Source: a virus. Taken from it: a stretch of 30,111 nucleotides of DNA. The stretch's first letter is position 1; the number at the start of each line of letters is the position of its first letter. The position numbers and the translations under genes are program-made. Below are positions 5,071 to 29,779 of the stretch, one piece after another. The stretch lies in the IMG/VR virus record IMGVR_UViG_3300017989_000323, positions 1-30,111 of that record; one strand, written 5' to 3'. The notes beneath the pieces are model-generated. The model was not told the DNA's origin. It saw nothing but the letters and a program-made list of their open reading frames with translations, and did no database searches.

Positions 5071-5373
5071 ATGATCTCCGAACTCGTGAGAGACGAGGAG
5101 GGGCGTCTCAGTAGTGCCAGGTGTTCGTTCTGGCTGACGCTGCTGGTGGCCCTGATCCTGATCGTGCTGGCAGCGCTGAAGATGGTGGAGATCTCGGCTG
5201 CAGCATATGCATTGCTTGGTACGATCTTCACCTTCACCTGCGCCTGGGCAGCGGGCCCGAGGATCGCGAAGTACGTCGGGCCCCAGATCGGCCGGGTGGT
5301 GGATGCGATCGGGAAGGCGAAGGATGATCGCCGGCTTCCGGATATCCGGCGGGATGACGAGAGCGGTCAGTGA
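5071..5373 (+). CDS. Putative holin (two transmembrane segments)
   Basis: A 100-residue protein with two clear hydrophobic helices (about residues 19-38 and 41-62) joined by a very short turn, and a basic, charged C-terminal tail (residues 63-100). That size and topology fit small phage holins, which oligomerise in the inner membrane and open it at the time of lysis. Its stop codon overlaps the start of the amidase gene (TGATG), so the two would be translated together. A short charged N-terminus (residues 1-14) precedes TM1. The holin role is inferred from topology and the adjacent endolysin. Confidence 0.72.
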   Translation: MISELVRDEEGRLSSARCSFWLTLLVALILIVLAALKMVEISAAAYALLGTIFTFTCAWAAGPRIAKYVGPQIGRVVDAIGKAKDDRRLPDIRRDDESGQ

Positions 5374-5915
5374 TGGCCCGGCTCACGTTTCACCCTGCGC
5401 TCCGACGGACGATCAGAAATGGAGCATGGCACGAGACGACCCGGGAGGATCGCCTCGGGGTGATGATTCACTTCGATGCCTCTGCCTCCGATGAGGGGGC
5501 GATAGCCTGGTTCCAGGATTCCCGCTGCCGGGTGAGCTACAACTACCTGGTCCTGGACGACGGCTCCTATGTTGAGATCGCTCCGCTCTCCGCCCGGGCC
5601 TGGCATGCAGGTGTGTGCCGGCCGTCTCATGACGGTCTCGCCTACAAGGATGCGAACTCCGCCTTCTACGGGATCGCCGCAGCTACCAACCTGAAGCACT
5701 CGGTTACCGGTCTGCAGCTGCTCACGATCGCCTACTTGGTGCGGAAGCTCTACCAGAAGCACAGTTGGAATCCCCTCGAGGTCTGGCGGATCGTCGGGCA
5801 TTCGGATGAGTGCTGGCCGCGGGGGAGAAAGGTGGATCCGGTCGGTCTGGATCCGGATCGGCCGATCCTATCTGTGGAGGCGGTGCGGAACCTCGCGCCG
5901 ATGATCGTGATATGA
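5373..5915 (+). CDS. Endolysin: N-acetylmuramoyl-L-alanine amidase (amidase_2 / T7 lysozyme type)
   Basis: A 180-residue protein that should cut the amide bond between MurNAc and L-Ala of peptidoglycan at lysis. It is a single catalytic domain with no visible cell-wall-binding module, the normal size for phages of diderm hosts. Expected zinc ligands of the amidase_2 family are visible: His33 in VMIHFD, His143 in IVGHSDE, and Asp155 in the GRKVDP motif; AWHAG around His78 is also typical. There is no signal peptide, so it would rely on the holin encoded just upstream. The ATG at 5373 overlaps the holin stop; a GTG one codon earlier is possible but less likely. Confidence 0.9.
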   Translation: MARLTFHPALRRTIRNGAWHETTREDRLGVMIHFDASASDEGAIAWFQDSRCRVSYNYLVLDDGSYVEIAPLSARAWHAGVCRPSHDGLAYKDANSAFYGIAAATNLKHSVTGLQLLTIAYLVRKLYQKHSWNPLEVWRIVGHSDECWPRGRKVDPVGLDPDRPILSVEAVRNLAPMIVI

Positions 5916-6565
5916 GATCCCGATTCTGGCCCGTCCTCACCGTGATCCTCGCCGCTCTCGTGGTCTGGGGAACCTTCGCTCGGGCCCGGAAGGAGAGCGA
6001 GATCCGCGCCTGGCAGCGTCAGGCGGCGCTGAACGACTCCCTGCACCAGATCGAAGCCGGCAGATACCAGCGGGCAGCCGTCGTCCTCGAGCGTGAACGA
6101 GACCTGCGGCACACGCTCCAGGACTCCCTTCCGGATCTGCACCGGGAGCTGCGGCGCCTGAGGGCGAACACGCGGGACTACATCAGCACGATCGCGCAGC
6201 TGCAGGACCTGGTGGCCGAGGGATCCGCGACGGACACTGTCTACGTCTCGCCGGCAACGGGCGACACAGTCCACCGGGTCGACTTCGAACACACCCAGCC
6301 GGGTATCCGGATCCAGGGCTTCACCATCACGCCTCCGCCGCGGTATCAGCTGCGGGCTCAGTTCGATCCCATCCCCATGCATATCGTGGTCTCGGAACTC
6401 CGCAACGGATCCCTGCAGGCCAACGTGGAGGTCCCCCCCTGGGTAGACATCAGTTCCCTCGATACCCGCATTGTGAGACGGCCGAAGTCCTGGCTGAGAA
6501 AGAACCACCCCTGGATCATGTCGGTCGGGCTGCTGGTGATCTGGGAGTGGATCCGGCCATTCTGA
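5912..6565 (+). CDS. Putative spanin-like membrane protein of the lysis cassette
   Basis: A 217-residue protein whose ATG overlaps the amidase stop (ATGA). Layout: an N-terminal transmembrane anchor (about residues 6-23), a long charged coiled-coil (about 28-100), a beta-like middle part containing DTVYVSPATGDTV, then a second hydrophobic segment close to the C-terminus (about 200-213). An N-terminal anchor plus periplasmic coiled coil directly after holin and endolysin is the usual place and form of an inner-membrane spanin, which helps disrupt the outer membrane. The second C-terminal hydrophobic segment is unusual for i-spanins; it could make this a unimolecular spanin variant. No lipoprotein partner gene is visible beside or inside it. 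The frame extends upstream inside the amidase gene, but without a start signal. Confidence 0.55.
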   Translation: MRSRFWPVLTVILAALVVWGTFARARKESEIRAWQRQAALNDSLHQIEAGRYQRAAVVLERERDLRHTLQDSLPDLHRELRRLRANTRDYISTIAQLQDLVAEGSATDTVYVSPATGDTVHRVDFEHTQPGIRIQGFTITPPPRYQLRAQFDPIPMHIVVSELRNGSLQANVEVPPWVDISSLDTRIVRRPKSWLRKNHPWIMSVGLLVIWEWIRPF

Positions 6566-6722
6566 CAGATATCTGACAGGGATTGTCATGACCGTGCGTT
6601 ACTGTGCATGCCCTTGCGCAACCTGATCATCGGCGGGAGGCCTTTATTTCCTGCGCTCTGACGGCCGAATTCGATGTGAATCCGCATAGGTAAAGGATAG
6701 GCGAAAATGGCGGGTAGCATTT

Positions 6723-6767
6723 CTCCGGAGCAAGAGGTCGTGAGTTCGAATCTCGCCCGGGGTACCA
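6723..6767 (+). other. tRNA-Arg(CCG) 3' half serving as attP core
   Basis: Bases 6723-6767 fold exactly as the 3' part of a tRNA. They comprise the anticodon loop CTCCGGA (6723-6729, anticodon CCG at 6725-6727, U33 present), the 3' anticodon strand GCAAG, variable loop AGGTC, T arm GTGAG/TTCGAAT/CTCGC (6740-6756), acceptor strand CCGGGGT, discriminator A and encoded CCA (6765-6767). The 5' half is absent: the bases before 6723 do not pair with GCAAG, and no ACCCCGG acceptor strand is found upstream. This is therefore not a working tRNA gene. It is the portion a phage carries to restore a host tRNA-Arg gene after integration at the anticodon loop. Confidence 0.85.
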
Positions 6768-6799
6768 TCTAACTCTTTGACAGGTACGATGTTAAGCTG

Positions 6800-6838
6800 G
6801 GGCGCTCAGGGCGCGACAACCTGAGCGCCCTATTTTTC
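6800..6838 (+). terminator. Rho-independent terminator beside attP
   Basis: A perfect 11-bp GC-rich stem, GGGCGCTCAGG (6800-6810) with CCTGAGCGCCC (6820-6830), a 9-base loop, then TATTTTTCT. The T-run is on the + strand only, so it stops rightward transcription, i.e. the lysis/late transcript. Its 3' stem touches the integrase stop codon (6830-6832). After integration it would lie just downstream of the restored host tRNA-Arg gene. Confidence 0.88.
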
Positions 6839-7930
6839 TGACGGATTTCTGACAGCCGGCGCAATGAATCCCACGTCGAAAACCACCCTTTCGGCCTCTG
6901 TCTGCAGGTGCTGATCGGTCAGGTGGCTGTAGTGTTTTTTTAGCACGGGCTCTGAAGTTCCAACGATTGAGGAGACTGTTGAAACCGGCACACCGCTTTC
7001 GAGCGCGCGGGTCACGTACGTGGCCTTGAAGGTATGCAGGGATCCCTTGATCGGAGGGGGCGGCTGCTCGCCGGCTTCCTGGGCCGCCTCCTCGTTCTTG
7101 CGGTTGATCCGATCGATCAGGCGAAGCAGGTGGCGCAGGGTAATCTTCCTGGTCGTAAAAGGTGCGGCGCCACCGAAGACGTACGGGCGGCTCTCGACGT
7201 GCCGCTGCAGGATCGTTCTCAGGGCCTCAGTGAGCGGGACCTTGCGGACCCGGCCGCCCTTGGCGTTGCGGACCTCAATGAAGTTCGGCCCTACATCTTC
7301 CCATTGCACAGCCAGTGCCTCAGATATCCGCATGCCGCTGTAGAGCAGGAAGAGCCAGAGATCCCGGTGCCGAGGATCCCCGCGGACCTGATCGAATATC
7401 TGGGCCAACATCGCATCGCTGAAGATGTACTTGCGTGCATCCTGGACGTTGAGCGAGATCCCGGTGGCCGGGTTCCTGGCGATGAGACCGTTTTTCAGAG
7501 CCCAGTTGAGGGCCGTGGTGATCACCCGCCTGTCCTGGTCGATGGTCGCCGACGACTTGCCGGCTTTCCGCCGTGAACCCAGGTATGCCTCGACGTGTTG
7601 GCGTGTTATCTGTCCGACGCGAGAAACGTCCAGGCGGCCGATGAATTTTGTCAGCGTCCTCTCGTCGAGCGAGGTTGTCTTCGGGTCTTTCTTCATCCGA
7701 GAGTAGCTGAGGTAGGCCTTCAGAAATTCCTCCACTTCCGGATTCTTCGGATACCCGAGGCCCCAGTGGATGATCTCATCCTCTTTCTGTGACCTGATCC
7801 TTTCTGCGATCCGCCTGTCCTTCGTCCCGGTGGATTTCCTCAAGCGCTTGCCAGTGGGGGAGAGCGCTGCCGGGATGTCGACATACCAGTACTTGCTCCG
7901 GGAGCACTTGTAGAGACCGACGTGGAGCAT
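6830..7930 (-). CDS. int: Site-specific tyrosine recombinase (phage integrase)
   Basis: A 366-residue integrase that should recombine attP with a host tRNA-Arg gene. Layout: an N-terminal arm-binding domain (about 1-60), a SAM-like core-binding domain (about 62-150) and a catalytic domain (about 165-345). Catalytic residues visible: Arg201 in SGMRISEAL, Lys224 in the beta-hairpin, His299 in SLHTFK, and nucleophile Tyr334 in KKHYSHL. Two positions deviate from the usual R-K-H-R-H/W-Y set: the HxxR box reads HTFK (Lys302), and the Gly-His before the tyrosine reads Gly-Thr (Thr325). The gene starts one base after the stop of the upstream zinc-ribbon gene, so it is the last gene of the leftward lysogeny operon, and its 3' end contains two arm-type repeats. 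Confidence 0.93.
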   Translation of the reverse strand: MLHVGLYKCSRSKYWYVDIPAALSPTGKRLRKSTGTKDRRIAERIRSQKEDEIIHWGLGYPKNPEVEEFLKAYLSYSRMKKDPKTTSLDERTLTKFIGRLDVSRVGQITRQHVEAYLGSRRKAGKSSATIDQDRRVITTALNWALKNGLIARNPATGISLNVQDARKYIFSDAMLAQIFDQVRGDPRHRDLWLFLLYSGMRISEALAVQWEDVGPNFIEVRNAKGGRVRKVPLTEALRTILQRHVESRPYVFGGAAPFTTRKITLRHLLRLIDRINRKNEEAAQEAGEQPPPPIKGSLHTFKATYVTRALESGVPVSTVSSIVGTSEPVLKKHYSHLTDQHLQTEAERVVFDVGFIAPAVRNPSEK

Positions 7931-7931
7931 G

Positions 7932-8447
7932 TTATGGGATCATATACGTTGAATGAGCGATCACATATTCTCCTCTGCTTGAAGTATCGTTGCAGAGCTC
8001 TCCGTTGACTAATATGCTGGCGCGAACGCTTCCGGTGGCTCCTTTATTCTGGGCCATTACCTGAGCGAAAAATCCGCTTGAAGCTGTAAAGGATAGTTCC
8101 CATGGAAGATCGGCTTCGGCAATCTGCGCAGTGCCCCCATCAGGGTCAGTATATGTAAGCGAAACGGACACGGCTGATCCGGTTACGCTATATTGAAGTT
8201 CATAACTAGCGGGGCTGAGATCTATCAGCCCTGAAGAAATAGCTAAATATGCAAGAACACCTGCCAGAACGATGAATATCAATAGAGACAATGAACCGCC
8301 GAGCGAGAAGCTCTGCTGTGAGGGCTCATTGGCCTCCGGTTGAAGCCGTGATTCGTCGGTTCCTTCTCCCTCCAACATCGATCCGCAGTGCTTGCATTTG
8401 ATGGCGTCGTCTTGGATTTCTTCTGCACAGTATGGACAGGTTTTCAT
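7932..8447 (-). CDS. Zinc-ribbon / single-TM protein with MmpS-like extracytoplasmic domain
   Basis: A 171-residue protein, with GGGAGG upstream of the ATG. An N-terminal zinc ribbon has ligands Cys4, Cys7, Cys18 and Cys21 (CPYC...CKHC). A Ser/Gln/Glu-rich linker leads to one transmembrane helix (about 52-74), then a ~95-residue beta-rich domain. The latter's pattern (YxVTGSAxxVSLTYTD, then PWELSF, then a Cys-containing final strand) resembles the small Ig-like MmpS domain of mycobacterial and other membrane proteins. It sits between an outer-membrane-like protein gene and int and shares a transcript with both. It is probably lysogenic-conversion cargo affecting the envelope, perhaps superinfection exclusion; that role is a guess. 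AT content is higher than in the flanking phage genes. Confidence 0.72.
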   Translation of the reverse strand: MKTCPYCAEEIQDDAIKCKHCGSMLEGEGTDESRLQPEANEPSQQSFSLGGSLSLLIFIVLAGVLAYLAISSGLIDLSPASYELQYSVTGSAVSVSLTYTDPDGGTAQIAEADLPWELSFTASSGFFAQVMAQNKGATGSVRASILVNGELCNDTSSRGEYVIAHSTYMIP

Positions 8448-8484
8448 TGAACGTCCTCCCTGTGATAGGCGTTATCGCGAAGAA

Positions 8485-9069
8485 TTAACCCGCTTTCTGG
8501 GGGCGCGATCCATAACCGAATGTTACCCAGATGCTACTGGAATACATGTCGACTGTGATTCCGTATGCCGTCAAAGATCCTTCAAGGCGATGGTACCTGA
8601 CGCTTATTGAAACAGGGGGCGCGAGAACGAGAAAGCCCGCACCATAACCCAGACCACCCTTCACAGTAAAACCTTCTTCATGATCGAATCTCCACCAGGC
8701 ATAGTTGACTGTCGGGTGAACGAATATCCAGGAGTCGGAGTTTGCGGACCCCGCAGCCAGACACAATCCCGCCCATGCGACATTCTGAGACACCTTGTTG
8801 CCCGTGCCCGAGACCGAGCGAGAATGGGACCCGTCATAGCCGGCGATGAATCCGAAGGTTCGACCCCAGAACATTGCCTGACTGCTGATGGAGAAGCCGG
8901 TATCCACTTTAACGTCTTCCCCGGTCTCGTCCGAGCATATGTTCCCGAAGGTTGCACCCAGGGTGATGGTTGATGCCGCTAAAGTGCCGACAGTGTCAGG
9001 AATGGCAGATTGTGCGGCAACCGAGAGGGGCAACATTAATGACACGAGAAGCGTAGATGTATACCTCAT
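8485..9069 (-). CDS. Secreted outer-membrane-like beta-barrel protein (prophage cargo)
   Basis: A 194-residue protein with a clean Sec signal peptide (about residues 1-20, ending VAAQ). The mature part is made of alternating hydrophobic/polar strands rich in Gly, Ser, Tyr and Trp, and contains FxFIAGYDGSHS, WAGLCLAAGS and a final WVTFGYGS strand, as in small outer-membrane barrels. AAGGA lies before the ATG. No named family is recognised. It is transcribed with the lipoprotein gene upstream and the zinc-ribbon/TM gene downstream. Expression in the lysogen is expected, since the repressor heads this strand, so a change in the host surface is a fair inference. Codon and base use are less GC-rich than in the phage core genes. 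Confidence 0.68.
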   Translation of the reverse strand: MRYTSTLLVSLMLPLSVAAQSAIPDTVGTLAASTITLGATFGNICSDETGEDVKVDTGFSISSQAMFWGRTFGFIAGYDGSHSRSVSGTGNKVSQNVAWAGLCLAAGSANSDSWIFVHPTVNYAWWRFDHEEGFTVKGGLGYGAGFLVLAPPVSISVRYHRLEGSLTAYGITVDMYSSSIWVTFGYGSRPQKAG

Positions 9070-9087
9070 GATTTCCTTATCGGATCC

Positions 9088-10224
9088 TCACAGTATTGGA
9101 GTGCCTACCAGAACAGCCTTTCTCCATCCTTCCCATTCGCGGTAATCCCTGAATGCATCGTCTCCGTAGTAGAGCCAGATGGCCGATCCTCCGGGATCCT
9201 TATAGGTGAGCGGAGAGAGATTGGTGCAGCTGACACCCCCGTAGCTGGTGCCGTTGTATCCGTTATGCCACCAGACAGCTCCGAGGGATCCCACCTTCTG
9301 ATAGAACGTTCGGTAGATTCCCGTGATGTCAATCGACGTCGATGCTCCATTAGACCAGAAGTATGTGTAGTTCCCGCTCAGGGTCATTGAGAATGCGAGT
9401 TTGTCATCTTCTGGCCAGGTGTCCGGTCCGTTGTAGTACTCAACGGCTGTCGATTCTAACGAAACGACGATCGAGTCGATGCCTACGCTGTCGATCAGGG
9501 CATAGGTGGCAGTCCAATCGTATTCGGTGAGATCGTGGAAGAAATACAGGGGGGAACTGAGGTTGAGATCCCCGGCAGAAACATGAACGTTTGTTTCGAT
9601 TTCAGAGCCCGACATCAAGGTGTCACCAGCGATTGATATGAATTCATGATCGGTTGTGATCTCTACGTCCCCACCCGTCCAGATCACTGCATTGCCATAC
9701 TGATCCTCACACGTGATCCAGTCTGACAGAACCAAGGGCTGATCCACGAAAGCTCGTATCGAATTGACATCGATATCAAGTTCTGCCGGCGGGCCTGGCT
9801 CGGCCGTTGCCTCGAAGGTTTCATACACGACCGGGGTTCCGTCCGAGCGAACTGCGCGGGCCTGCATACGCTGGGCTCCGGCGGTCACTCCGAGCGCCCA
9901 GAGATCTGCAGCCCTCCCCAATGTGTCGGTCAGGGCGCTGCCGGCGTAGACGGATCCGCCGCCCTCGGTAACCACGAAATTAATCAGGACGCCGGGGATT
10001 GGATTCCCGATATCCTGCGCCCCCCCAGGCGCCCGCACCTCCACGATGCAGGCGTCGGGGAGCGTGTCTGTTACGGCCGCAATCTGGCCATTGCCCTGGA
10101 TGATGCTCAGGTTTACTCCCTGAGCGAGGATGGCATCGGTGTCGGGCCCGGGGTTAGTTGGGTTTGATTCTGATGAACATGAAATGAGAAGAATAGTCGC
10201 GGTAATCAGTGGTAACGCCTTCAT
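9088..10224 (-). CDS. Lipoprotein with bacterial Ig-like (Big-1-type) domain (prophage cargo)
   Basis: A 378-residue protein preceded by GGAAGGGAG. The N-terminus has a hydrophobic core and lipobox LISC with Cys16 as the lipidation site, then a Ser/Asn/Pro-rich tether. Residues ~35-145 look like a Big-1-type domain: a PxxxPGVxINFxVTEGGGSVY strand pair, then TDxxGRA and GAQxMQARA, as in invasin/intimin-like and many surface proteins. Residues ~150-378 are beta-rich, with many Trp and Tyr, and unrecognised. It should sit in the outer membrane or be surface exposed. As a moron gene in the lysogeny operon it may alter adhesion or phage adsorption; I infer this from location and context only. Confidence 0.72.
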   Translation of the reverse strand: MKALPLITATILLISCSSESNPTNPGPDTDAILAQGVNLSIIQGNGQIAAVTDTLPDACIVEVRAPGGAQDIGNPIPGVLINFVVTEGGGSVYAGSALTDTLGRAADLWALGVTAGAQRMQARAVRSDGTPVVYETFEATAEPGPPAELDIDVNSIRAFVDQPLVLSDWITCEDQYGNAVIWTGGDVEITTDHEFISIAGDTLMSGSEIETNVHVSAGDLNLSSPLYFFHDLTEYDWTATYALIDSVGIDSIVVSLESTAVEYYNGPDTWPEDDKLAFSMTLSGNYTYFWSNGASTSIDITGIYRTFYQKVGSLGAVWWHNGYNGTSYGGVSCTNLSPLTYKDPGGSAIWLYYGDDAFRDYREWEGWRKAVLVGTPIL

Positions 10225-10337: not shown

Positions 10338-10733
10338 TCAGCCACCCTCCTTTTCTGTTTCGGTCTTTCGCTTGATGTCGGATAAGAAATTTTCAAGGGC
10401 GCGCTGGCCGCCCTGCTCTGCGGCCTGTCTGATGTAGTCGGCTACTTCTTCTGAGACGCGGCCACCTCCGACTGAGATCTGAATGCCTTCGTATTCGGCG
10501 ATGATCTCGGCCATGGGGATATCAAGTGCTTCAGCGACTGCCTGAAGCTGGGGCCAGTCCGGGAATGTATGCCCGCGCTCCCAGGAACTGATGGTCTCTG
10601 CTCGTATTCCTGAGAGAGCTGCCAATTCCTTTGCCAAGAGCCCGTGCTTGTTTCGCAGCCGTCGAATTGCATCGCCCATTCGCTGCTTCTCTTCTGGGCT
10701 CATAATCTTGGTGTCCTTGCGCTTTTCGGGCAT
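10338..10733 (-). CDS. XRE-family phage repressor (CI-like)
   Basis: A 131-residue protein. Residues ~20-78 form a HTH_3/XRE domain: GDAIRRLRNKHGL, then LAKELAALSGIRAETISSWERG, the recognition helix region, and FPDWPQLQAVAEALDIP. The C-terminal part (85-131) is helical and short, with no LexA-type peptidase domain, so induction cannot be by self-cleavage. The frame is open to 10838, but that longer version would run over an operator, so the ATG at 10731-10733 (GGTGAG upstream) is preferred; an ATG ten codons later is possible. The gene is divergent from an HTH gene at 10869 with two operator-like palindromes between them. It heads the leftward operon that ends in int. Confidence 0.85.
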   Translation of the reverse strand: MPEKRKDTKIMSPEEKQRMGDAIRRLRNKHGLLAKELAALSGIRAETISSWERGHTFPDWPQLQAVAEALDIPMAEIIAEYEGIQISVGGGRVSEEVADYIRQAAEQGGQRALENFLSDIKRKTETEKEGG

Positions 10734-10752
10734 GCGGTAATACTCACCGAGA

Positions 10753-10768
10753 TTTCGCTGATGCGCAA
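10753..10768. promoter_or_regulatory. Putative repressor operator O-left
   Basis: TTTCGCTGATGCGCAA fits TTnCGC-N4-GCGnAA, the same dyad as the second site at 10829. It lies 20 bp in front of the repressor ATG, where a bound repressor could control its own transcription. The two sites are 76 bp apart centre to centre. Confidence 0.55.
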
Positions 10769-10828
10769 GAAGCAAGCCGGGCAATTCAGTCACCCCTGAA
10801 ATGAATTTCCACTGCCGCCATTTTTCAC

Positions 10829-10844
10829 TTGCGCGCACGCGTAA
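10829..10844. promoter_or_regulatory. Putative repressor operator O-right
   Basis: TTGCGCGCACGCGTAA fits TTnCGC-N4-GCGnAA, and the dyad extends to 20 bp (10827-10846, ACTTnCGCGnnCGCGnAAGT). It lies 25 bp before the first gene of the rightward operon. A weak promoter could overlap it (TTCACT at 10825-10830 and TACTTT at 10847-10852, 16-bp spacing), which would put the operator inside the spacer; the promoter itself is tentative. Confidence 0.6.
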
Positions 10845-11993: not shown

Positions 11994-13376
11994 ATGACAG
12001 AGGCAACTTCAACACTCCCGGTTCCTGCGGAGCTCCAGCATGCTCCCTCGGACGAGGAGATACAGCAGATCCGGAAGCGCGGCACCGCAGTAGTCGCGTA
12101 CCGGAAGGAAGTGAACGAGATCTTCCGAACACTCGAGGGGATGGAGTGGGGATCCGGGACGAGTGCCGTAAGGGGAACTCAGTTCTCAGAGCAGACGCGG
12201 TATGCCCTGGCGGTGTTCTGCCGGATCACCGGTGCGAACCCACTCACCCAGGTCGATATCTTGGGAGGCAAGCCCTACCTGAACGCGGCGTTCTGGTCCG
12301 ACAAGATCAACCGGAGCCCACACTTCCACCACTTCGATCAACGCGATCTCTCGCCCTCAGTACAGGCAGCCCACGAGGACAAGGCGAAGCAGCTGCGAGA
12401 GATGGCGAAGGAGATCAAACCGACTGACGAGGCAAAGGCCGCGGAGTACACCACCCGGGCATTCGAAGCCGAGGAGATGGCCGAGGAAATCCGGGACGCA
12501 CGTGTCAGCTGGAGCCCACCGGCATGGGCGGAGGTGGTGATTGAGACCTCGATCTACCGGTTCATCGACGCCGCTCCCCTCGAGAAGATCCGCGCCGGTG
12601 AGATCACCGATCTCAATTCCTGGCTCATCTGCGTGCGTGAATGCAACTGGGCTGGTGGGCGACCGAAGGAGAAGAAGAAGAACCGGCAGACCGGGAAGGA
12701 ATACGAGTATCAGCCGGATCCGGTCGGTAACGCCGAACCTGCAAAGACGGCACGGACGCGGAGCCTGCGTCGGGCCTCCACCCGGGCATTCGCTGCCTGG
12801 GGGCAGGACTACGAACAGCAGGTCCGGAAGGCCGAGGAAGCGATCGAGGCCGAATTCGAGATCATCACCAACGGGAATACAGACGGAGCGCCAGCCGCTG
12901 GCGAGCCTCAGGCGGTACACACCGGCAACGGTGAGCCCGAGGCAGCGAGAGAGGAGGGGGCGGTCGATCTCCCGGAGACCGGGAGGATCTCCGAGGAGCA
13001 GGAAGAGCCTGAGGCCGCTCCCTCCGAACCGGAAGCCTCCGAGCCCTCCTGGAATGAGGAGGACGACCGAAAACGCCTCTTCGCAACACTGCGAGAGGCG
13101 GGGATCGAGGACCGGAAGGCCTGGCAGGCCGAGCATGGGCTTCCCGAATCCACGAAGGACTGGGGCCCGGATGAGTACCAGCGGGCCTTTCAGGAACTCA
13201 CAGCGGGGCCGATCTCAATGTTCAAGGACGGTTGTGAGGTCCTCGGTCTGGATCCCGCCGCAGTTGCCCAGGAGGTTCTCGGCCACGAGCCCGACACCCT
13301 GAAGGACTACAACCTCCTCAACAACCACCTCGCGACCCTGGCAGACGGGGAAGCCCAGCAGGACCTCCTGTCATGA
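11994..13376 (+). CDS. RecT-like single-strand annealing protein (putative)
   Basis: A 460-residue protein. Residues ~68-105 carry a pattern seen in RecT/Bet-type annealases: ALAVFCRITGANPLTQVDIL, then GGKPYLNAAFWSDKI. A later ARTRSLRRASTRAF segment (~residues 255-275) matches the family's conserved TRA-x-RA helix. The C-terminal 150 residues are an acidic, Pro/Glu-rich linker and a small helical domain, longer than typical RecT (about 270), perhaps for partner binding. The next two genes encode an SbcD/SbcC-like nuclease, so this protein is likely the annealase of a two-part recombination system. The RecT call rests on pattern, not alignment. Its stop overlaps the next start. Confidence 0.6.
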   Translation: MTEATSTLPVPAELQHAPSDEEIQQIRKRGTAVVAYRKEVNEIFRTLEGMEWGSGTSAVRGTQFSEQTRYALAVFCRITGANPLTQVDILGGKPYLNAAFWSDKINRSPHFHHFDQRDLSPSVQAAHEDKAKQLREMAKEIKPTDEAKAAEYTTRAFEAEEMAEEIRDARVSWSPPAWAEVVIETSIYRFIDAAPLEKIRAGEITDLNSWLICVRECNWAGGRPKEKKKNRQTGKEYEYQPDPVGNAEPAKTARTRSLRRASTRAFAAWGQDYEQQVRKAEEAIEAEFEIITNGNTDGAPAAGEPQAVHTGNGEPEAAREEGAVDLPETGRISEEQEEPEAAPSEPEASEPSWNEEDDRKRLFATLREAGIEDRKAWQAEHGLPESTKDWGPDEYQRAFQELTAGPISMFKDGCEVLGLDPAAVAQEVLGHEPDTLKDYNLLNNHLATLADGEAQQDLLS

Positions 13377-14548
13377 GGGGGGCAGCCACTTCCGACCTCC
13401 ACCTGGGATTCCGGGCGTTTTCGGCCATGATCGACGGCCGGAATGCCCGGGAGGTGGATGTCGAGCGCGCATGGGCGCAGGCGGTCGATCGGATCTGTGA
13501 GGCAGGTCCGGACTTCGTGGGGATCCCCGGGGATGTCTTCCACCATCCCCGGGTCGGAATCCACTCCGTGAAGGCCTGGCGGAACGGGATTCTCCGGATA
13601 GTAGAGGAGACCGAGGCGGAGATCGTCATCGTGCAGGGCAACCACGATGCGGCGAAGACCTCCGAGACCCTCTCACCGATCGTGATCCCGGATGATTACG
13701 CCCGGGTTCATATCCTGACCGAGCCTGGCCGGGTACGGTTCGAGACGTCCACCGGTGAGAAGGTGGCGGTGGCATGTTTTCCCTTCGTGAAGCTCGGCCA
13801 AGAGTTCTCCTACAAGCTCGAGCCCGCAGATGATGCGGACACGAACATCCTACTCCTGCACGCCGCGGTAAAGACCTCTGTCGACGGAAAGGCACTACCC
13901 CATTTCTACGGAGGGGCAGGAGCCCTCGACATGGGCCGGGAAGCCGACCGCTGGGATGCGATCATCGTCGGCGATTACCACGAGTACACCCAGCTGGTTC
14001 CCGACCGGATCGTTCTCTACCCCGGTTCACTCGAACGGACCTCCTCGAATATCTGGAACGAGCATGATCCGAAGGGCCTGGTGTTCTTCGACACGGCGAA
14101 CCAGACGCACGAGTTCGTGACGGTCTCCACCAGGGAGATGGTCGACCATGTCTTCAGATCGAACGAGGAGGAAGACGAGGATTACGTCTACATCGACGCG
14201 ATCGACGCTGAGAGCGTGAACTCGGAACTCCTCCGCCTCCTCGATGGAGGGTACATCCCCGAGGACAGCATCTTCCGCGTCAAGGTCGACAACTTCCCCC
14301 GCGGCGATCGCGACCAGATCGACTGGAAGCTGGTCCGCGAACTCAAAGCCCACTGCCTCCACTTCTATCTCGATCTCCGATACGCAGAGCGCACAGCAAC
14401 CGATCTCGGCGACCGCCGGGACGGGGCGGGGCGTTCCCTACGCGACGAGGCCGTGGCCTTCCTCGAGGAAGACCCGCCGGAGGTCCGGGACTGCGCCATG
14501 GGCTACCTCTTCCCACCGGAGGAGGAGACGGAGGAGGTGCCGGCATGA
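13373..14548 (+). CDS. sbcD: SbcD/Mre11-like metallophosphoesterase nuclease
   Basis: A 391-residue protein with all the calcineurin-type metal-binding motifs in order: DLHLG (Asp8, His10), GDVFHH (Asp54), GNHD (Asn90-Asp92), LLLHA (His163) and GDYHEY (His203). It is expected to be the manganese-dependent exo/endonuclease subunit partnering with the SbcC-like ATPase encoded next, comparable to T4 gp47 or T5 D12. The C-terminal ~130 residues form the capping and SbcC-binding part. The ATG overlaps the preceding stop, and its own stop overlaps the sbcC start (ATGA). The role would be DNA end processing for recombination-dependent replication. Confidence 0.9.
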   Translation: MRGAATSDLHLGFRAFSAMIDGRNAREVDVERAWAQAVDRICEAGPDFVGIPGDVFHHPRVGIHSVKAWRNGILRIVEETEAEIVIVQGNHDAAKTSETLSPIVIPDDYARVHILTEPGRVRFETSTGEKVAVACFPFVKLGQEFSYKLEPADDADTNILLLHAAVKTSVDGKALPHFYGGAGALDMGREADRWDAIIVGDYHEYTQLVPDRIVLYPGSLERTSSNIWNEHDPKGLVFFDTANQTHEFVTVSTREMVDHVFRSNEEEDEDYVYIDAIDAESVNSELLRLLDGGYIPEDSIFRVKVDNFPRGDRDQIDWKLVRELKAHCLHFYLDLRYAERTATDLGDRRDGAGRSLRDEAVAFLEEDPPEVRDCAMGYLFPPEEETEEVPA

Positions 14549-17010
14549 AGCTGATCAGCTTGAAGCTGGAGAACTTCCGCCAGCACGCGGATACCGAGAT
14601 CACCTTTCCGATTACCGGACTGACCGGGATCCTCGGAGCGAACGAGAGCGGGAAGAGCACGGTCGTCGAGGCAGTCGAGTGGATCCTGTTCGGCGCCCGG
14701 GCCACCCGGGGAACGGTGAAGAGCATCCGCTGGACCGGCGCCACAGGCCGTCAGATCGCCCGTGGCGAGCTCGTGTTCGAAGTGGGCGGGACGGTCTACC
14801 GCTGCAAGCGCACCGAGAATGACGCCTCGCTGAAGATCGAGGGCCAGGCGACACCTGTCGCCGCGAGCATCAGCGGTGTTGATTCGATGATCCCCCGGAT
14901 CCTTGGGATGGACCTCGACGAGTTCAGCGCCACCTACCTCTGCCGGCAGAAAGATCTGAACCGGCTCTCCATCATGGGCGGTACCGATCGGAAGCAGTTC
15001 GTGCTGAAGCTCATGGGGGTGGGGAAGGTCGACCAGGCGCTGAGATCCTGCAGGGCGACGAAGAACGCCCTGAAGAACGAGGTGCAGGGATTGAAGGAGG
15101 GCCTCGGGGAACGGGAGCCGCTCGAGGAGGAGAAGCGGGTGGCCCAGGCTGTGGAGGCTGCCGAACAGTCTGCACACCACGAAGCGGAACAGAAAGTAAC
15201 CGACACCGAGGTTCAGTACACCTCGGCGAAGGAAGCCCTCGATACTTCCACGGAGAAGCAGAACCAGCACCGGGAACTGGAGCAGAAGCGCACCCAGGCA
15301 TCGGGCGAGATCAACTCTGCCGAGCGTGAGCTCACCCGCCTGAGGAACGATGAAGAGAAGGCCACGGAGGCCCGGGAGAGGGTTGCGAAGGCGGACGAGC
15401 AGCTGGCCGACCTGAAGATCCTGCGAGAGGAACGCGACTCGATCAGGGAGGCGAAGGCTAGAGCCAACGAGCGGATCCGCCTGCAGAAGTTGATCGACGA
15501 ACAGACCTCCGAGATCTCCGCCCTGAAGGAAAAGGCAGACGAGTTCGCGGGATCGATACCAGAGGAACCGATGGCAAATCTCATCGGTCTCTCTGAGGCC
15601 CAGCAGGAACTCCCCGTCCTCCAGGAGGACCGAAAGACCCGTCTGATTGAGGCGGAGAAAGCACGAGCAGTAGCTCTCTCGAGGAGTGAAGAAATCGGGA
15701 AGCAGCTGCAGACGATATCAGCTCTCGGCCCTGACGGAGAATGCCCAACCTGCACGAAAGTGATCGGCGAGGATTACGACACTATCCACTCTGCTCTGAG
15801 CGAGATCGTCACCCAGGCGGAGAAGGATGCGATCGACCTGCAGAAGAAGATCGATTCCCTGAAATCTCCGACCGACGAGGAGATGGAGCTCCAGGCTCGT
15901 ATCGAGGAGCTGCAGGAACGGGCTGCAGCCGTGAAGCAGGCTCGTGAGAAGCGGGAGCAGATCACCACCCGCATCCGGGAGATTCAGGAAGAGGTCACCC
16001 GAAAGGAGCAGGTCCTCTCTGAGAACCGCAACGAGCTCGCCGGTATGCCTGGCGGGGCCTACAACCAGGACCGGCTCACCGAGGTTGAAACCCGGATCCA
16101 GAACCTCGAAAAGCTCGAGGAGCAGGTCCGGGCGGACCGATCGCTTGCCGACCGCCTTCCCTCCATCCAGGAGGAGAAGCAGCGCAGGACGAAGCAGGTC
16201 GATCTCGGCCAGGAGGTTATTACCGAGGTCAACCGGGATATCGAGGTGCTCGGATTCAATGCCGAGAGACATCAAGAGATCTTCCGGGACACGGAGAAAG
16301 CGCGAGAGGACCTGACCGGGGCGAAGACTGCCCGGGCCCGGGCCGAGGAGGCTCTGAAGGGGGCCCGCGACCGCCTGGAGAGGGCAGAGAAGGCCCTGCA
16401 GGGCTACGACGAGCGCGCGGAATCCCTGAATGCGAAGCAGGAGTCCCTACGGATACACGAGCGCGCCTCCGAGCGTCTGGCGGACTTCAGGACCGCCATG
16501 GCCGCCTCGATCCGCCCCGAACTCGAGGAACTCACCAGCGGATTCATCCACATTCTCACAGACGGCCGTCACGAGGCGGTCACGCTGACGGAGGAATTCG
16601 ACGTCGTGCTGCAGGAAGGCGGCCTCGATATGGAGGTCGTCTCCGGTGGCACCGAGGACATCTCCTCAATCGCCCTGCGCCTGGCGATCAGTCAGATGAT
16701 CGCCGAGCGGGCCGGTCACCCTCTCTCCTTGCTCGTGTTTGATGAGCCTTTCGGATCCCTCGACGAGACCCGCCGGCGGAACGTCACCGACCTGCTGGAT
16801 CGCCTAAAGGCAACCTTCGAGCAGGTCCTGGTGGTGACGCACGTCGACGAGGTCAAGAACACGGTCGACCAGGTCTTGCTGGTGGAATTCGACGAATCGA
16901 AAAGCCGGAGCCAGGTGATGGCGGACTGGGCGATGGAAGTCCCCGGGGAACCTGAGGAAGTCCCGGAGCAGACGCAGGAAACCGCCGAGCTCGTGAGCGA
17001 GTCGGCATGA
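14545..17010 (+). CDS. sbcC: SbcC/Rad50-like ATPase with zinc hook
   Basis: An 821-residue SMC-type ATPase. The Walker A motif is GANESGKST (31-39), the signature-like motif VSGGT is at 699-703, and Walker B VFDEPFGSLDE has Asp733-Glu734. In between are two long antiparallel coiled coils meeting at a zinc hook, CPTC (Cys400-Cys403), very near the centre of the protein. It is shorter than E. coli SbcC (1,048 residues) because of shorter coils, as usual for phage versions such as T4 gp46. It should form a complex with the SbcD-like protein to open and resect DNA ends. The C-terminal ~35 residues are an extra acidic tail. Confidence 0.92.
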   Translation: MKLISLKLENFRQHADTEITFPITGLTGILGANESGKSTVVEAVEWILFGARATRGTVKSIRWTGATGRQIARGELVFEVGGTVYRCKRTENDASLKIEGQATPVAASISGVDSMIPRILGMDLDEFSATYLCRQKDLNRLSIMGGTDRKQFVLKLMGVGKVDQALRSCRATKNALKNEVQGLKEGLGEREPLEEEKRVAQAVEAAEQSAHHEAEQKVTDTEVQYTSAKEALDTSTEKQNQHRELEQKRTQASGEINSAERELTRLRNDEEKATEARERVAKADEQLADLKILREERDSIREAKARANERIRLQKLIDEQTSEISALKEKADEFAGSIPEEPMANLIGLSEAQQELPVLQEDRKTRLIEAEKARAVALSRSEEIGKQLQTISALGPDGECPTCTKVIGEDYDTIHSALSEIVTQAEKDAIDLQKKIDSLKSPTDEEMELQARIEELQERAAAVKQAREKREQITTRIREIQEEVTRKEQVLSENRNELAGMPGGAYNQDRLTEVETRIQNLEKLEEQVRADRSLADRLPSIQEEKQRRTKQVDLGQEVITEVNRDIEVLGFNAERHQEIFRDTEKAREDLTGAKTARARAEEALKGARDRLERAEKALQGYDERAESLNAKQESLRIHERASERLADFRTAMAASIRPELEELTSGFIHILTDGRHEAVTLTEEFDVVLQEGGLDMEVVSGGTEDISSIALRLAISQMIAERAGHPLSLLVFDEPFGSLDETRRRNVTDLLDRLKATFEQVLVVTHVDEVKNTVDQVLLVEFDESKSRSQVMADWAMEVPGEPEEVPEQTQETAELVSESA

Positions 17011-19824: not shown

Positions 19825-20075
19825 CCGCCACCTACGGCACCCTCTGCGCCTGGCTCGGGGATTTCGCGAAGGAGATGATGGTTGCCACGACGCCATTCAG
19901 GCGGCGAGAGCTCATGACCAACATCAGCACTCGGGCCCGGAGGGATGGATTCACAGAGGACGAGATCGATCACATTCGCGTACTGGCCGTCCGGGAATTG
20001 AGGCGGATCCAGCGAAGCGGCACCCCGGGGCGGAAGTCGTCGGGTAGACCACAGAGCATTCCAGGGGAGGAATGA
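19821..20075 (+). CDS. Small hypothetical protein
   Basis: An 84-residue protein starting at a GTG that overlaps the previous TGA. It is largely helical (residues 5-68), then has a basic, Gly/Ser/Pro-rich tail. The sequence before its stop includes GGGGAGG, the Shine-Dalgarno of the DUF5131 gene. No family recognised. Confidence 0.55.
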   Translation: MTATYGTLCAWLGDFAKEMMVATTPFRRRELMTNISTRARRDGFTEDEIDHIRVLAVRELRRIQRSGTPGRKSSGRPQSIPGEE

Positions 20076-20971
20076 TGCCGACCAAGATCGAATGGACCGA
20101 GGAAACCTGGAACCCCGTCACCGGATGCACGAAGGTCTCTGCCGGCTGCCAGAACTGCTATGCCGAGCGCATGGCGAAGCGGCTGGCAGGGAGGTATGGA
20201 TATCCGGCCGATGATCCTTTCCGGGTGACGCTGCAAGAGGACCAGCTGAGTAAGCCACTCTCCTGGCGGAAGCCCCGGATGGTCTTCGTCTGCAGCATGG
20301 GGGATCTGTTCCACCCGGACGTGCCGGACGAGTACATCACTCAAATCTTTGATGTGATGGCAAAAGCACGTTGGTACAGGCAAACGTTTCAAGTTCTCAC
20401 TAAGAGACCGGAAAGAATGAGGGAGCATCTACTCGCTCGTAAGGCACTAACTGCGCCCAACGTCTGGCTAGGTGTAACGGCCGAGAACCAGGAGACCGCC
20501 GACCAGCGTATACCAATCCTGCTCCAAACCCCGGCCGCGGTCAGGTTCGTGTCGTGCGAGCCGCTGCTGGGGTCGTTGGACTTGGCAGAGGGCGGACACG
20601 GGTGGCTATTCGTCACTGACTTAACAGACGGCAGACGCACCCATCTCGATTGGGTGATCGTCGGCGGTGAGTCGGGACCGAAGGCCCGGCCGGCTCACCC
20701 GGATTGGTTTCGCTCTATCCGCGATCAATGCCAGTCCGCCGGGGTGCCGTTCTTCTTCAAGCAGTGGGGTGAGTGGATTCCAGTAGATGAAGTGCCGAGC
20801 GGATATGCCCACTACAACGACGTAAAAACGCCGGGCAAAGGCGGTCACGTCAGACGTTCGCGGCTGGTCGATGATGTGCTGATGGTACGTGTCGGTAAAA
20901 AGGCCGCCGACCGCATACTCGACGGCCGCACCTGGGACGAATTCCCGAACACTGGAGAGGAGCAGCGGTAG
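20075..20971 (+). CDS. DUF5131 (phage Gp37/Gp68) three-Cys protein, radical-SAM-like
   Basis: A 298-residue protein of the phage Gp37/Gp68 family. The hallmark is near the start: Trp-Asn-Pro-Val-Thr-Gly-Cys18, then Cys25 and Cys28 followed by Tyr-Ala-Glu, a CX6CX2C cluster thought to hold an iron-sulfur centre in a TIM-barrel related to radical SAM enzymes. Other family segments present are FVCSMGDLFH, VLTKRPERM, NVWLGVTAENQ, RFVSCEPLLG, WVIVGGESGP and PFFFKQWGEW. The biochemical activity is not established. The tandem ATGs at 20072 and 20075 are both possible; the second fits the GGGGAGG spacing better. The middle of the gene (about 20340-20480) is more AT-rich than its ends. Confidence 0.9.
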   Translation: MPTKIEWTEETWNPVTGCTKVSAGCQNCYAERMAKRLAGRYGYPADDPFRVTLQEDQLSKPLSWRKPRMVFVCSMGDLFHPDVPDEYITQIFDVMAKARWYRQTFQVLTKRPERMREHLLARKALTAPNVWLGVTAENQETADQRIPILLQTPAAVRFVSCEPLLGSLDLAEGGHGWLFVTDLTDGRRTHLDWVIVGGESGPKARPAHPDWFRSIRDQCQSAGVPFFFKQWGEWIPVDEVPSGYAHYNDVKTPGKGGHVRRSRLVDDVLMVRVGKKAADRILDGRTWDEFPNTGEEQR

Positions 20972-26674: not shown

Positions 26675-26771
26675 CACCTGGCATTATCTCCTACCTGAGT
26701 GCCAGAGGACGTCCGTATCCTGATAGCGTGGTGTGGCGAATTCCTCATCTTCGTTCACGCCCTCACGCACT

Positions 26772-26808
26772 CAACCCCTCGTTGCCGGCCGGCGGGAACG
26801 GGGGGTTG
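26772..26808 (+). terminator. Strong hairpin in the gap between early and packaging genes
   Basis: CAACCCCTCGTT (26772-26783) pairs with AACGGGGGGTTG (26797-26808): 12 bp including one G-U pair, around a 13-base GC-rich loop, followed by TCCTTTATC. The T-run is weak, so this may be a leaky terminator separating early from packaging genes, or an RNA control element in the leader of the methyltransferase gene 19 bases downstream. The rest of 26675-26827 shows no gene, and I see no convincing promoter there. Confidence 0.5.
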
Positions 26809-26827
26809 TCCTTTATCGGGTAATGAA

Positions 26828-28126
26828 GTGGCGGAAAAACTAAAAATAGAAATGGTGCCCACGGAAAGCCTCAAGCCGGCACCGTATAATCCCCGGAAAA
26901 TCAGCGATGATGCACTCCAGAGACTACGCCGCGGCATCAGGGAATTCGGCATTGTGGATCCGATTGTGGTCCGCCGCAAAGGCAAGGTTGTAATTGGCGG
27001 TCACCAGAGATTGCGTGCTGCGATCGAAGAGGGAATAAAAGAGGTTCCTGTTATTTTTCTTGCAGGATTGAGCGAGGCGAAGGCAAAAGCACTAAACGTA
27101 TTATTGAACAATCCAAACGCCCAGGGTGAATGGGATGTTGATGATCTACACGAACTATTGCGTGAACTTGATGATGATGATTTTGATGCGACATTGACCG
27201 GATTCGATGAAAACGATCTTGAAGAAATGCTGGCCCAGGACGCCCCCCAGGAAGAGCGCGCTCCTGATTTAACACCACCTGAAAAACCGAAATCGAAGCG
27301 CGGAGAAATATACGAACTCGGCCCCCACCGTCTGATGTGTGGTGATGCGACGAGCGAGGAGGATGCCGAAAGCATAGTTGGGACAAAGTGTGTCCACCTT
27401 GTAATAACATCACCCCCCTACAACGTAGGAATTGATTATAGCGATCACCAAGACACTATGCCCCGAGATGACTATCTCGGACTGATTCGATCTGCCGTGA
27501 ACGTTTGGCGCGAGCGCCTTTGCAATGGGTGTTTTTTCGCGTGGAACATCGGCGTGAGACCCAAAACATATCCATATCAACAAGCAGTTATTCTCGAGAA
27601 TGCCGGGCTGGTGTTTTATAGGCAGATCGTGTGGGAGAAGGTGGGTGTTCCATATCCAGTGTGGTCATTTACAACGAAAACAAAATCTGCTCGGAAGTAT
27701 TATCCAAACTGGACGCACGAGATGATATATCTGTTTCACAAGGGCGAAGAGCCCACCGCTGGCGGGAAAATAGTCCCCGACGATGAGTTCTCGCGAGACG
27801 TGATCAATGTACCACAACACCTCGCAACAAAGGACCTGAAAACCGTTGGTCAAGCATCTGACACGCTAATAAAACGCGGTAAACCATCACACAGGGTAAA
27901 AGAGCACCCCGCTGCGTTTCCTGTCCGGCTTGCGGCCGGGTATATCAACCACCTGACGGCCGATGATGAGGTGGTATGTGATCCATTCGCGGGGTCCGGC
28001 GCAACCATCATCGCCGCCGAACAACTCGGCCGCACCTGCTATGCAATGGAGATCGATCCCGCCTACTGCGATGTCGCCCGCCGTCGATATGCCGAATACG
28101 TCAACCGCCCGGAGCTTGCACCATGA
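26828..28126 (+). CDS. ParB-like nuclease domain fused to N4/N6 DNA methyltransferase
   Basis: A 432-residue protein. Residues ~10-95 are a ParB/Srx-type domain (LKPAPYNPRKIS, then GIVDPIVV, GGHQRLRAA). The rest is a beta-class methyltransferase with the catalytic motif TSPPYN (194-199) before the AdoMet motif DPFAGSG (385-391). SPPY is more typical of N4-cytosine enzymes than the DPPY of adenine enzymes, though exceptions occur. No restriction partner lies beside it. It probably modifies phage DNA against host restriction or takes part in packaging-site marking. The GTG at 26828 is my choice of start; the frame is open further upstream, through the hairpin, without a start signal. The gene is clearly AT-richer than the early genes. 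Confidence 0.88.
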   Translation: MAEKLKIEMVPTESLKPAPYNPRKISDDALQRLRRGIREFGIVDPIVVRRKGKVVIGGHQRLRAAIEEGIKEVPVIFLAGLSEAKAKALNVLLNNPNAQGEWDVDDLHELLRELDDDDFDATLTGFDENDLEEMLAQDAPQEERAPDLTPPEKPKSKRGEIYELGPHRLMCGDATSEEDAESIVGTKCVHLVITSPPYNVGIDYSDHQDTMPRDDYLGLIRSAVNVWRERLCNGCFFAWNIGVRPKTYPYQQAVILENAGLVFYRQIVWEKVGVPYPVWSFTTKTKSARKYYPNWTHEMIYLFHKGEEPTAGGKIVPDDEFSRDVINVPQHLATKDLKTVGQASDTLIKRGKPSHRVKEHPAAFPVRLAAGYINHLTADDEVVCDPFAGSGATIIAAEQLGRTCYAMEIDPAYCDVARRRYAEYVNRPELAP

Positions 28127-28593
28127 AGATCTGCGGAGACTTCGGTGGAAAGAAACGCGACGGCAAGCCGTGTGAGTTGCCGGCGGGCTGGGGAACCGGT
28201 AAGCGGACGGGACGATGCAAGCATCATAAAAAGAAGCGCGGTCGCGGAAGACCGCGCCTCAATCTTGATAAAACACAGATAGAGACCCTGGCGCGTATTA
28301 ACTGCACTCACGAAGAAATAGCAGCCGTAATGGGCTGTTCTGTGGATACCATTTCCAGGAATTATGCGGAGTTAATAAATAAGGCTCGATTAAACGGAAA
28401 AACAAGTTTGCGTCGTGCGCAATGGAAGAAAGCACTATCAGGAAACACTGGCATGTTGATTTGGCTCGGCAAGCAGGAGCTTGGTCAGAGCGATCGTCAC
28501 GATTTTGAGCATTCCGGGCCCGACGGCGGACCGATCCCCTCCCAAATAAACATCCACCTGGTCAGTACAGATGAACCAGACGACGGCGATTGA
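28123..28593 (+). CDS. terS: Terminase small subunit (putative)
   Basis: A 156-residue protein. It opens with a Cys/His-rich segment (CGDFGGKKRDGKPCEL, then CKHHKKK) seen at the start of some phage terminase small subunits, followed by RGRPRL and a helix-turn-helix (ETLARINCTHEEIAAVMGCSVDTISR, residues ~55-80), then SLRRAQWKKALSGNTGMLIWLGKQELG, a typical oligomerisation helix region of TerS. The tail is acidic and overlaps terL by 23 bases. Its role would be to recognise the pac or cos site and load the large subunit. Confidence 0.82.
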   Translation: MKICGDFGGKKRDGKPCELPAGWGTGKRTGRCKHHKKKRGRGRPRLNLDKTQIETLARINCTHEEIAAVMGCSVDTISRNYAELINKARLNGKTSLRRAQWKKALSGNTGMLIWLGKQELGQSDRHDFEHSGPDGGPIPSQINIHLVSTDEPDDGD

Positions 28594-29779
28594 AGTCGAG
28601 TTGCCGAAGGCCATGAGCTTCCTGCTCGACCCGCCCCTGGGTGGCATCCGATATCGGGTGGCCTACGGTGGCCGCGGTAGCGCGAAGTCCTGGAGCTTTG
28701 CCCGTGTGTTGCTGCTTCATGGTATGCAGCGGCCGCTACGGATCCTCTGTGCTCGGGAGTACCAGGTATCGATTAAAGACAGCGTGCATCAGCTGCTGTC
28801 CGACCAGGTAGACGCCATGGGTTTGAGCAGTTTCTACGACGTTCAGACCAGCGTCATAGCCGGGCTGAACGGGACAGACTTCCTGTTCAAGGGTCTACGC
28901 AGGAACATCCAGGAGATCAAGTCCACCGAGGGAATCGATCTCTGCTGGGTAGAAGAAGCCGAGGCTGTCAGCGATAATTCCTGGCGGATCCTGATCCCCA
29001 CCGTGAGAAAGTCGGACTCCGAGATCTGGGTGTCCTTCAACCCCGCTCTGGCCTCTGATCCCACTTACCGTCGCTTCGTCCAGGATCCGCCCTCCAGGAG
29101 CATCGTGCAATTCGTGTCCTGGAAGGACAACCCCTGGCTGCCTGAGGTGCTCAAGGACGAGGCCGAAGAACTGCGTATCAAGGATCCTGAAGCCTATGCC
29201 CACGTCTGGGGCGGTGAGCCCTGGCAGCGGTCTGATGCCCAGGTCCTGGCCGGCAAGTGGACCGTGGAGGAGTTCGAACCCCGGGACAGCTGGAACGGAC
29301 CCTACTACGGAGCCGACTGGGGATTCGCCCTGGATCCCACAATCATCGCGCGCGTGTGGATCGCCGATTCTCGGCTCTATATCGACTACGACAATGGCGC
29401 ACCCCAGATGAATCTGGACGATATCGAGCGGGAATGGGCGAAGGTCCCCGGGGCCAGGCAGCACACCATCCGGGCCGACAGTGCCCGCCCTGAGACGATC
29501 AACGAAATGGCCTCCCGCGGCTGGAAGATTGTCGGCGCGAAAAAGTGGTCGGGATCCGTCGAGGATGGGATCGAACACCTGCGCAGTTATGAGAAGATCG
29601 TCATTCATCCGCGCTGCAAACGGGCCAGGGAGGAGGCCCGCCTCTGGAGCTATAAGACCGATCCCCGCACAGACGACGTAATCCCGAAACTCAAAGATGG
29701 GTTTGAGCATGTCTGGGACGCCGTCCGGTATGCCCTGGCACCGATCATCCAGAAGGGCAGGGGGTTTGCCTTCGGATGA
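28571..29779 (+). CDS. terL: Terminase large subunit (PBSX / Terminase_3 family)
   Basis: A 402-residue DNA-packaging motor. ATPase domain: Walker A GGRGSAKS (33-40) and Walker B DLCWVEEAE with Asp123, Glu128 and Glu129. Nuclease domain: Asp249 in GADWGFALDPT, Asp303 in IRADSARPETI and Asp383 in HVWDAVRYAL, the three acidic metal ligands expected. PBSX-type AREYQVSIKDSVHQLL and FNP motifs are also present. Length is normal for the family. The start overlaps terS; the ATG has a poor Shine-Dalgarno, consistent with coupled translation. Confidence 0.95.
   Translation: MNQTTAIEVELPKAMSFLLDPPLGGIRYRVAYGGRGSAKSWSFARVLLLHGMQRPLRILCAREYQVSIKDSVHQLLSDQVDAMGLSSFYDVQTSVIAGLNGTDFLFKGLRRNIQEIKSTEGIDLCWVEEAEAVSDNSWRILIPTVRKSDSEIWVSFNPALASDPTYRRFVQDPPSRSIVQFVSWKDNPWLPEVLKDEAEELRIKDPEAYAHVWGGEPWQRSDAQVLAGKWTVEEFEPRDSWNGPYYGADWGFALDPTIIARVWIADSRLYIDYDNGAPQMNLDDIEREWAKVPGARQHTIRADSARPETINEMASRGWKIVGAKKWSGSVEDGIEHLRSYEKIVIHPRCKRAREEARLWSYKTDPRTDDVIPKLKDGFEHVWDAVRYALAPIIQKGRGFAFG

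Follow-up and report, generated by a model that had tools for sequence, protein, structure and literature searches.

The question raised by this locus is whether a tRNA fragment lying beside an integrase gene is the attachment site of a temperate phage and, if so, where in the tRNA gene the strands are exchanged and which bacterium provides the target. The window, i.e. the whole stretch of DNA analysed, is a linear IMG/VR fragment of 30,111 bases. The relevant features are as follows.

5370-5915: amidase gene, upstream of attP
ending at 6565: small gene, upstream of the tRNA half
6561-6579, plus strand: putative arm-type Int sites of the P arm, TCTGACAG twice, at 6561 and at 6572, with a spacing of 11 bp (repeat search)
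6717-6722, plus strand: GCATTT, putative left core-type half-site (host GCATGC, 4/6 match; alignment, wider search)
6723-6767, plus strand: attP common core, the tRNA-Arg(CCG) 3' half from the anticodon loop to CCA (alignment to host genes)
6723-6729, plus strand: CTCCGGA, anticodon loop and presumed 7-bp overlap for strand exchange (left edge of phage/host identity)
6776-6783, plus strand: lone arm-like repeat TTTGACAG, a possible extra site (repeat search)
6798-6837, plus strand: hairpin with T tail resembling an intrinsic terminator, about 30 bp past CCA (folding)
6837-6855, plus strand: putative arm-type Int sites of the P' arm, also a pair, with TCTGACGG at 6837 and TCTGACAG at 6848 (repeat search)
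6830-7930, minus strand: tyrosine integrase gene, 366 aa, 3' end facing attP, Lys302 at the Arg-II position (PF00589, E 1.9e-11; PHROG 1 integrase, E 7.7e-55)
10338-10838, minus strand: Cro/CI-type repressor candidate (HTH_3, E 7.7e-11; PHROG 3 repressor)
28571-29779: TerL

The segment 6723-6767 reads CTCCGGAGCAAGAGGTCGTGAGTTCGAATCTCGCCCGGGGTACCA and is divided into CTCCGGA GCAAG AGGTC GTGAG TTCGAAT CTCGC CCGGGGT A CCA, which correspond in order to the anticodon loop (CCG), the 3' strand of the anticodon stem, the variable loop, the T arm, the 3' acceptor strand, the discriminator and CCA. Alignment to four complete tRNA-Arg(ccg) genes placed its first base at C32, the start of the 7-nt anticodon loop, and its last at the end of CCA. 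Since the parts run from the loop to CCA and no complete tRNA was called by ARAGORN across the 30,111-base window, the segment is a 3' half alone, as the initial annotation had described it. The D arm and the 5' acceptor strand were not found upstream of 6723, either by alignment to the four host tRNAs or in a wider search. The same wider search limited the host match 5' of 6723 to GCAT at 6717-6720, so the annotation's view that the tRNA homology runs no further upstream also held.

The same arrangement was found in a second phage, IMGVR_UViG_3300031553_000005 (L057; G001 hereafter), the sole close relative by TerL (84 % TerL identity) and the only one of 25 TerL-related records in which an integrase was found. 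The two integrases are about 43 % identical. A single-protein query with the window integrase retrieved no relatives among viral contigs, and a two-sequence alignment query retrieved G001 again and nothing further. G001 has a 127-bp terminal repeat and therefore looks complete or circular. Its order is that of the window: a late small gene, the tRNA-Arg half (CTCCGGAGCATGAGGTCACAGGTTCGAATCCTGTTCGGGGTACCA at L083 1929-1973), a hairpin and the integrase gene, whose stop codon comes immediately after the CCA of the tRNA half. By alignment, host identity in G001 starts two bases before the anticodon loop. Neither record represents an integrated form, because attP is intact and phage genes lie on both flanks.

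Candidate hosts were sought through the tRNA half. The exact 45-mer 6723-6767 had no match in the viral or species-genome collections searched, and a first relaxed pattern requiring GCAAG had none among viral contigs. A relaxed pattern covering both halves matched four contigs, and nothing else, in about 85,000 species genomes:

L085: MAG labelled Zixibacteriota, complete tRNA-Arg(ccg) of 77 nt
L086: MAG labelled Latescibacterota, complete tRNA-Arg(ccg) of 77 nt
L087 and L088: MAGs labelled 'bacterium' (Meg19/Meg22 bins), complete tRNA-Arg(ccg) of 77 nt

These four are every genome of one phylum in the searched species-genome set. When 19.6 kb of phage sequence was compared with each of them, the 6723-6767 block gave the best phage/host match every time (E 3e-14, 4e-14, 4e-4 and 1e-3), which excludes chance. 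The window half is identical to the tRNA-Arg(ccg) of L085/L086 at 44/45 positions and the G001 half to that of L087/L088 at 45/45, whereas 8 or 9 positions differ in the cross-group comparisons; each phage half thus tracks one host group. The initial annotation had expected host genes with an identical 3' half: tRNA-Arg(CCG) genes were indeed found, with 44/45 identity in L085/L086, but the exact 45-mer occurred in no genome. The prophage junctions to which it had also pointed were not encountered, as neither attL/attR nor a lysogen was found in the four MAGs; the integrases there are only distant (at most 30 % identity) and TerL is absent, hence no lysogen. In the stretches read, the tRNA-Arg(CCG) gene of L085 and L086 is preceded by a gene whose end looks like an excisionase helix-turn-helix (RYLIMKDEF), and a similar end occurs in L088.

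The core is flanked by paired repeats, spaced 11 bp within each pair in both phages. Such two-sided pairs were reached in 0 of 2000 shuffles, in the window phage and in G001 alike. The arm word of G001 differs (TCCGCAAG/A at 1779, 1790, 2044 and 2055 in L083 coordinates) and the layout is closely similar: counted from the core start, the right pair lies at +114/+125 in the window and +115/+126 in G001, and the left pair at -162/-151 and -150/-139, respectively, an offset of 12 bp or about one helical turn. These repeats would bind Int as arm-type sites. Because the right pair (6837-6855) sits within the 3' end of the int coding region, attP extends over about 6561-6855, which is more than the 6561-6767 proposed as a complete attP in the initial annotation; the core and the left arm pair stand, and the interval fell short by omitting the right arm sites. 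Between the core and the right pair, the sequence 6798-6832 can form a hairpin of 13 pairs, with T5 behind it (-27.3 kcal/mol, z -4.8). A consensus terminator scan did not pick up the 6798-6837 hairpin, whose loop of 9 is longer than the 8 that the scan allows, and an Rfam search of 6400-7000 gave chance matches only. A similar hairpin occupies the same place after the tRNA half in G001, and a strong hairpin soon follows tRNA-Arg(CCG) in three of the four host genes. The phage may well deliver a terminator along with the tRNA half, at which transcription of the rebuilt tRNA would stop, and the lysis operon may be served by it equally.

The whole of this arrangement very probably serves a temperate tailed phage as its attP, for integration into the tRNA-Arg(CCG) gene of its host by means of the adjoining integrase. 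It shows near-identity to a host tRNA from the anticodon loop to the 3' end (44/45 with L085/L086) and an adjoining tyrosine integrase gene (6830-7930), as expected of anticodon-loop sublocation A, or class I, attP sites. The integrase would bind the paired arm sites on either side of the core, and strands would be exchanged between attP and attB inside the 7-bp segment CTCCGGA. The host anticodon loop is bordered by the stem dyad CATGC/GCATG, which is what core-type Int sites would be expected to show. Integration would then join the host 5' half to the phage 3' half with its CCA and downstream hairpin, rebuilding tRNA-Arg(CCG), while the displaced 3' half of the host would come to lie at the opposite prophage end.

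Rebuilding of the tRNA was modelled with in silico hybrids of host 5' and phage 3' halves, all of which were called as tRNA-Arg(ccg) by ARAGORN. The G001 hybrid with L087/L088 is identical to the original gene. Against L085/L086 the window half shows a single difference, A in place of T, which falls in the anticodon stem, and its hybrids with all four candidate hosts carry a single stem mispair, A42 opposite A28. Given this mispair with the known hosts, U28 is the likely base in the true host, which is probably not among the genomes searched. Restoration of the host tRNA in vivo is predicted from the hybrids. Integration at the anticodon loop with restoration of the gene, as initially proposed, is supported by the host genes, the identity edge and the hybrids; the strand exchange in the loop itself we infer from that edge.

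Other readings of the same elements were weighed. The site could be a real attP whose crossover lies in the T loop or close to the 3' end of the tRNA, since tRNA-targeting integrases with such sublocations are known (PMC8371274, PMC4383910) and the identity block takes in these parts as well. However, a T-loop crossover would need no identity 5' of the T arm, yet the anticodon loop is retained in both phages together with the 3' strand of its stem, the variable loop and T stems that match by lineage, and identity stops at the anticodon loop; we regard this placement as very unlikely. Far less credible still is that the tRNA half is a decayed leftover of a phage-borne tRNA gene with no relation to integration. 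Phages do often carry tRNA genes, and the window holds no complete one, but the diverged relative G001 has the same truncation point, the same place next to the integrase and the same flanking arm pairs, and the 45/45 identity of its half to host genes implies that this half is under selection or was recently exchanged with the host.

A doubt of another kind concerns the integrase. From the tyrosine recombinase set R-K-H-R-(H/W)-Y, four members (R201, K224, H299 and Y334) are in place in the window integrase, K302 and a Thr deviate, and the family profile matches. The box III His is absent from both integrases, being replaced by Thr in the window phage and Ala in G001. Arg-II, an almost invariant residue, matters for catalysis, which leaves the catalytic activity of the window integrase uncertain: it reads HTFK where G001 reads HAFR, and the other compared integrases likewise have Arg at this position. 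The Lys could impair catalysis, and the phage might then possess an intact attP anatomy and yet be unable to integrate, living lytically or relying on another integrase. This seems unlikely, as the gene is intact, four other catalytic residues (R201, K224, H299 and Y334) are kept, Arg to Lys is a conservative change and Lys302 (codon AAG) could be an assembly error of one base. In the N-terminal region, where a lambda-like heterobivalent attP expects an arm-binding domain, only sub-threshold Pfam matches were obtained.

If the preferred reading of an attP with its crossover in the anticodon loop is followed, the mechanism is an ordinary, textbook one, as this type of tRNA attP is already well known from mycobacteriophage Omega and SSV1. 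The attP of SSV1 is the 44-bp 3' half of a tRNA-Arg and lies inside the int gene, which is split upon integration, whereas the window phage core lies outside int. Integrase overlap regions coinciding with the tRNA anticodon loop are established, and that of the archaeal fusellovirus SSV1 is the anticodon loop, as proposed for the window phage, although the SSV1 virus and integrase are archaeal (PMC8371274). The cluster J mycobacteriophage Omega also has an anticodon-loop tRNA attP (PMC3706429); its integration into a tRNA-Leu gene of Mycobacterium was shown by experiment, whereas the window phage, with tRNA-Arg(CCG) and an uncultured host, is known by computation alone. Among catalogued tRNA islands, 2083 of 3919, about half, have anticodon-centred sites (Islander, PMC4383910), with a 3' tDNA fragment and an anticodon-centred crossover; the window is the same in kind, except that an integrated copy was not found. 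Like the window phage, those of the tRNA-dependent lysogeny class, e.g. Fionnbharth, rely on an integrase for exchange at a tRNA gene of the host; they have a shared core of ~10 bp and a complete replacement tRNA (PMC10865867); assignment to this class was rejected, given the 45-bp core and the lack of a complete tRNA in the 30-kb fragment. In Roseobacter phage CRP-810 (L105:2505-2579) a complete tRNA-Thr(ggt) was observed 9 bp past the integrase stop codon, which might be an att site exceeding a half or a carried tRNA.

Elsewhere in the window, the Cro/CI-type repressor gene is a candidate indication of a temperate lifestyle, as judged by its family matches. Between int and this gene, three genes at 7932-10224 (minus strand) look like lysogen cargo. 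One codes for a zinc-ribbon protein that has a hydrophobic segment; the products of the other two, a small protein whose N-terminus is signal-like and a putative lipoprotein (LISCSSESNPTNPGP), had no family match. Adjoining genes at 13373-17010 (plus strand) resemble an SbcD/SbcC (Mre11/Rad50-like) pair, of which Pfam backs SbcC and the first gene is without a match. A DUF5131 protein (E 9e-102) is encoded at 20072-20971 (plus strand), and a single protein combining a ParB-like N-terminal domain with an N6/N4 DNA methylase at 26699-28126 (plus strand), right before the terminase genes.

It appears fairly probable that the window phage and G001 belong to a temperate lineage using the tRNA-Arg(CCG) gene of one uncultured candidate phylum. 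As the tRNA half of each phage tracks a different host clade, the att core would serve as a host barcode. A possible attP/integrase pair is delimited for such bacteria, subject to the caveat of Lys302 in the integrase. The value of the finding lies in the host to which it points: through the att core, two environmental phages are linked to a phylum that has only four genomes in the searched set, and this connection to a barely sampled bacterial group was obtained without spacers or culture.
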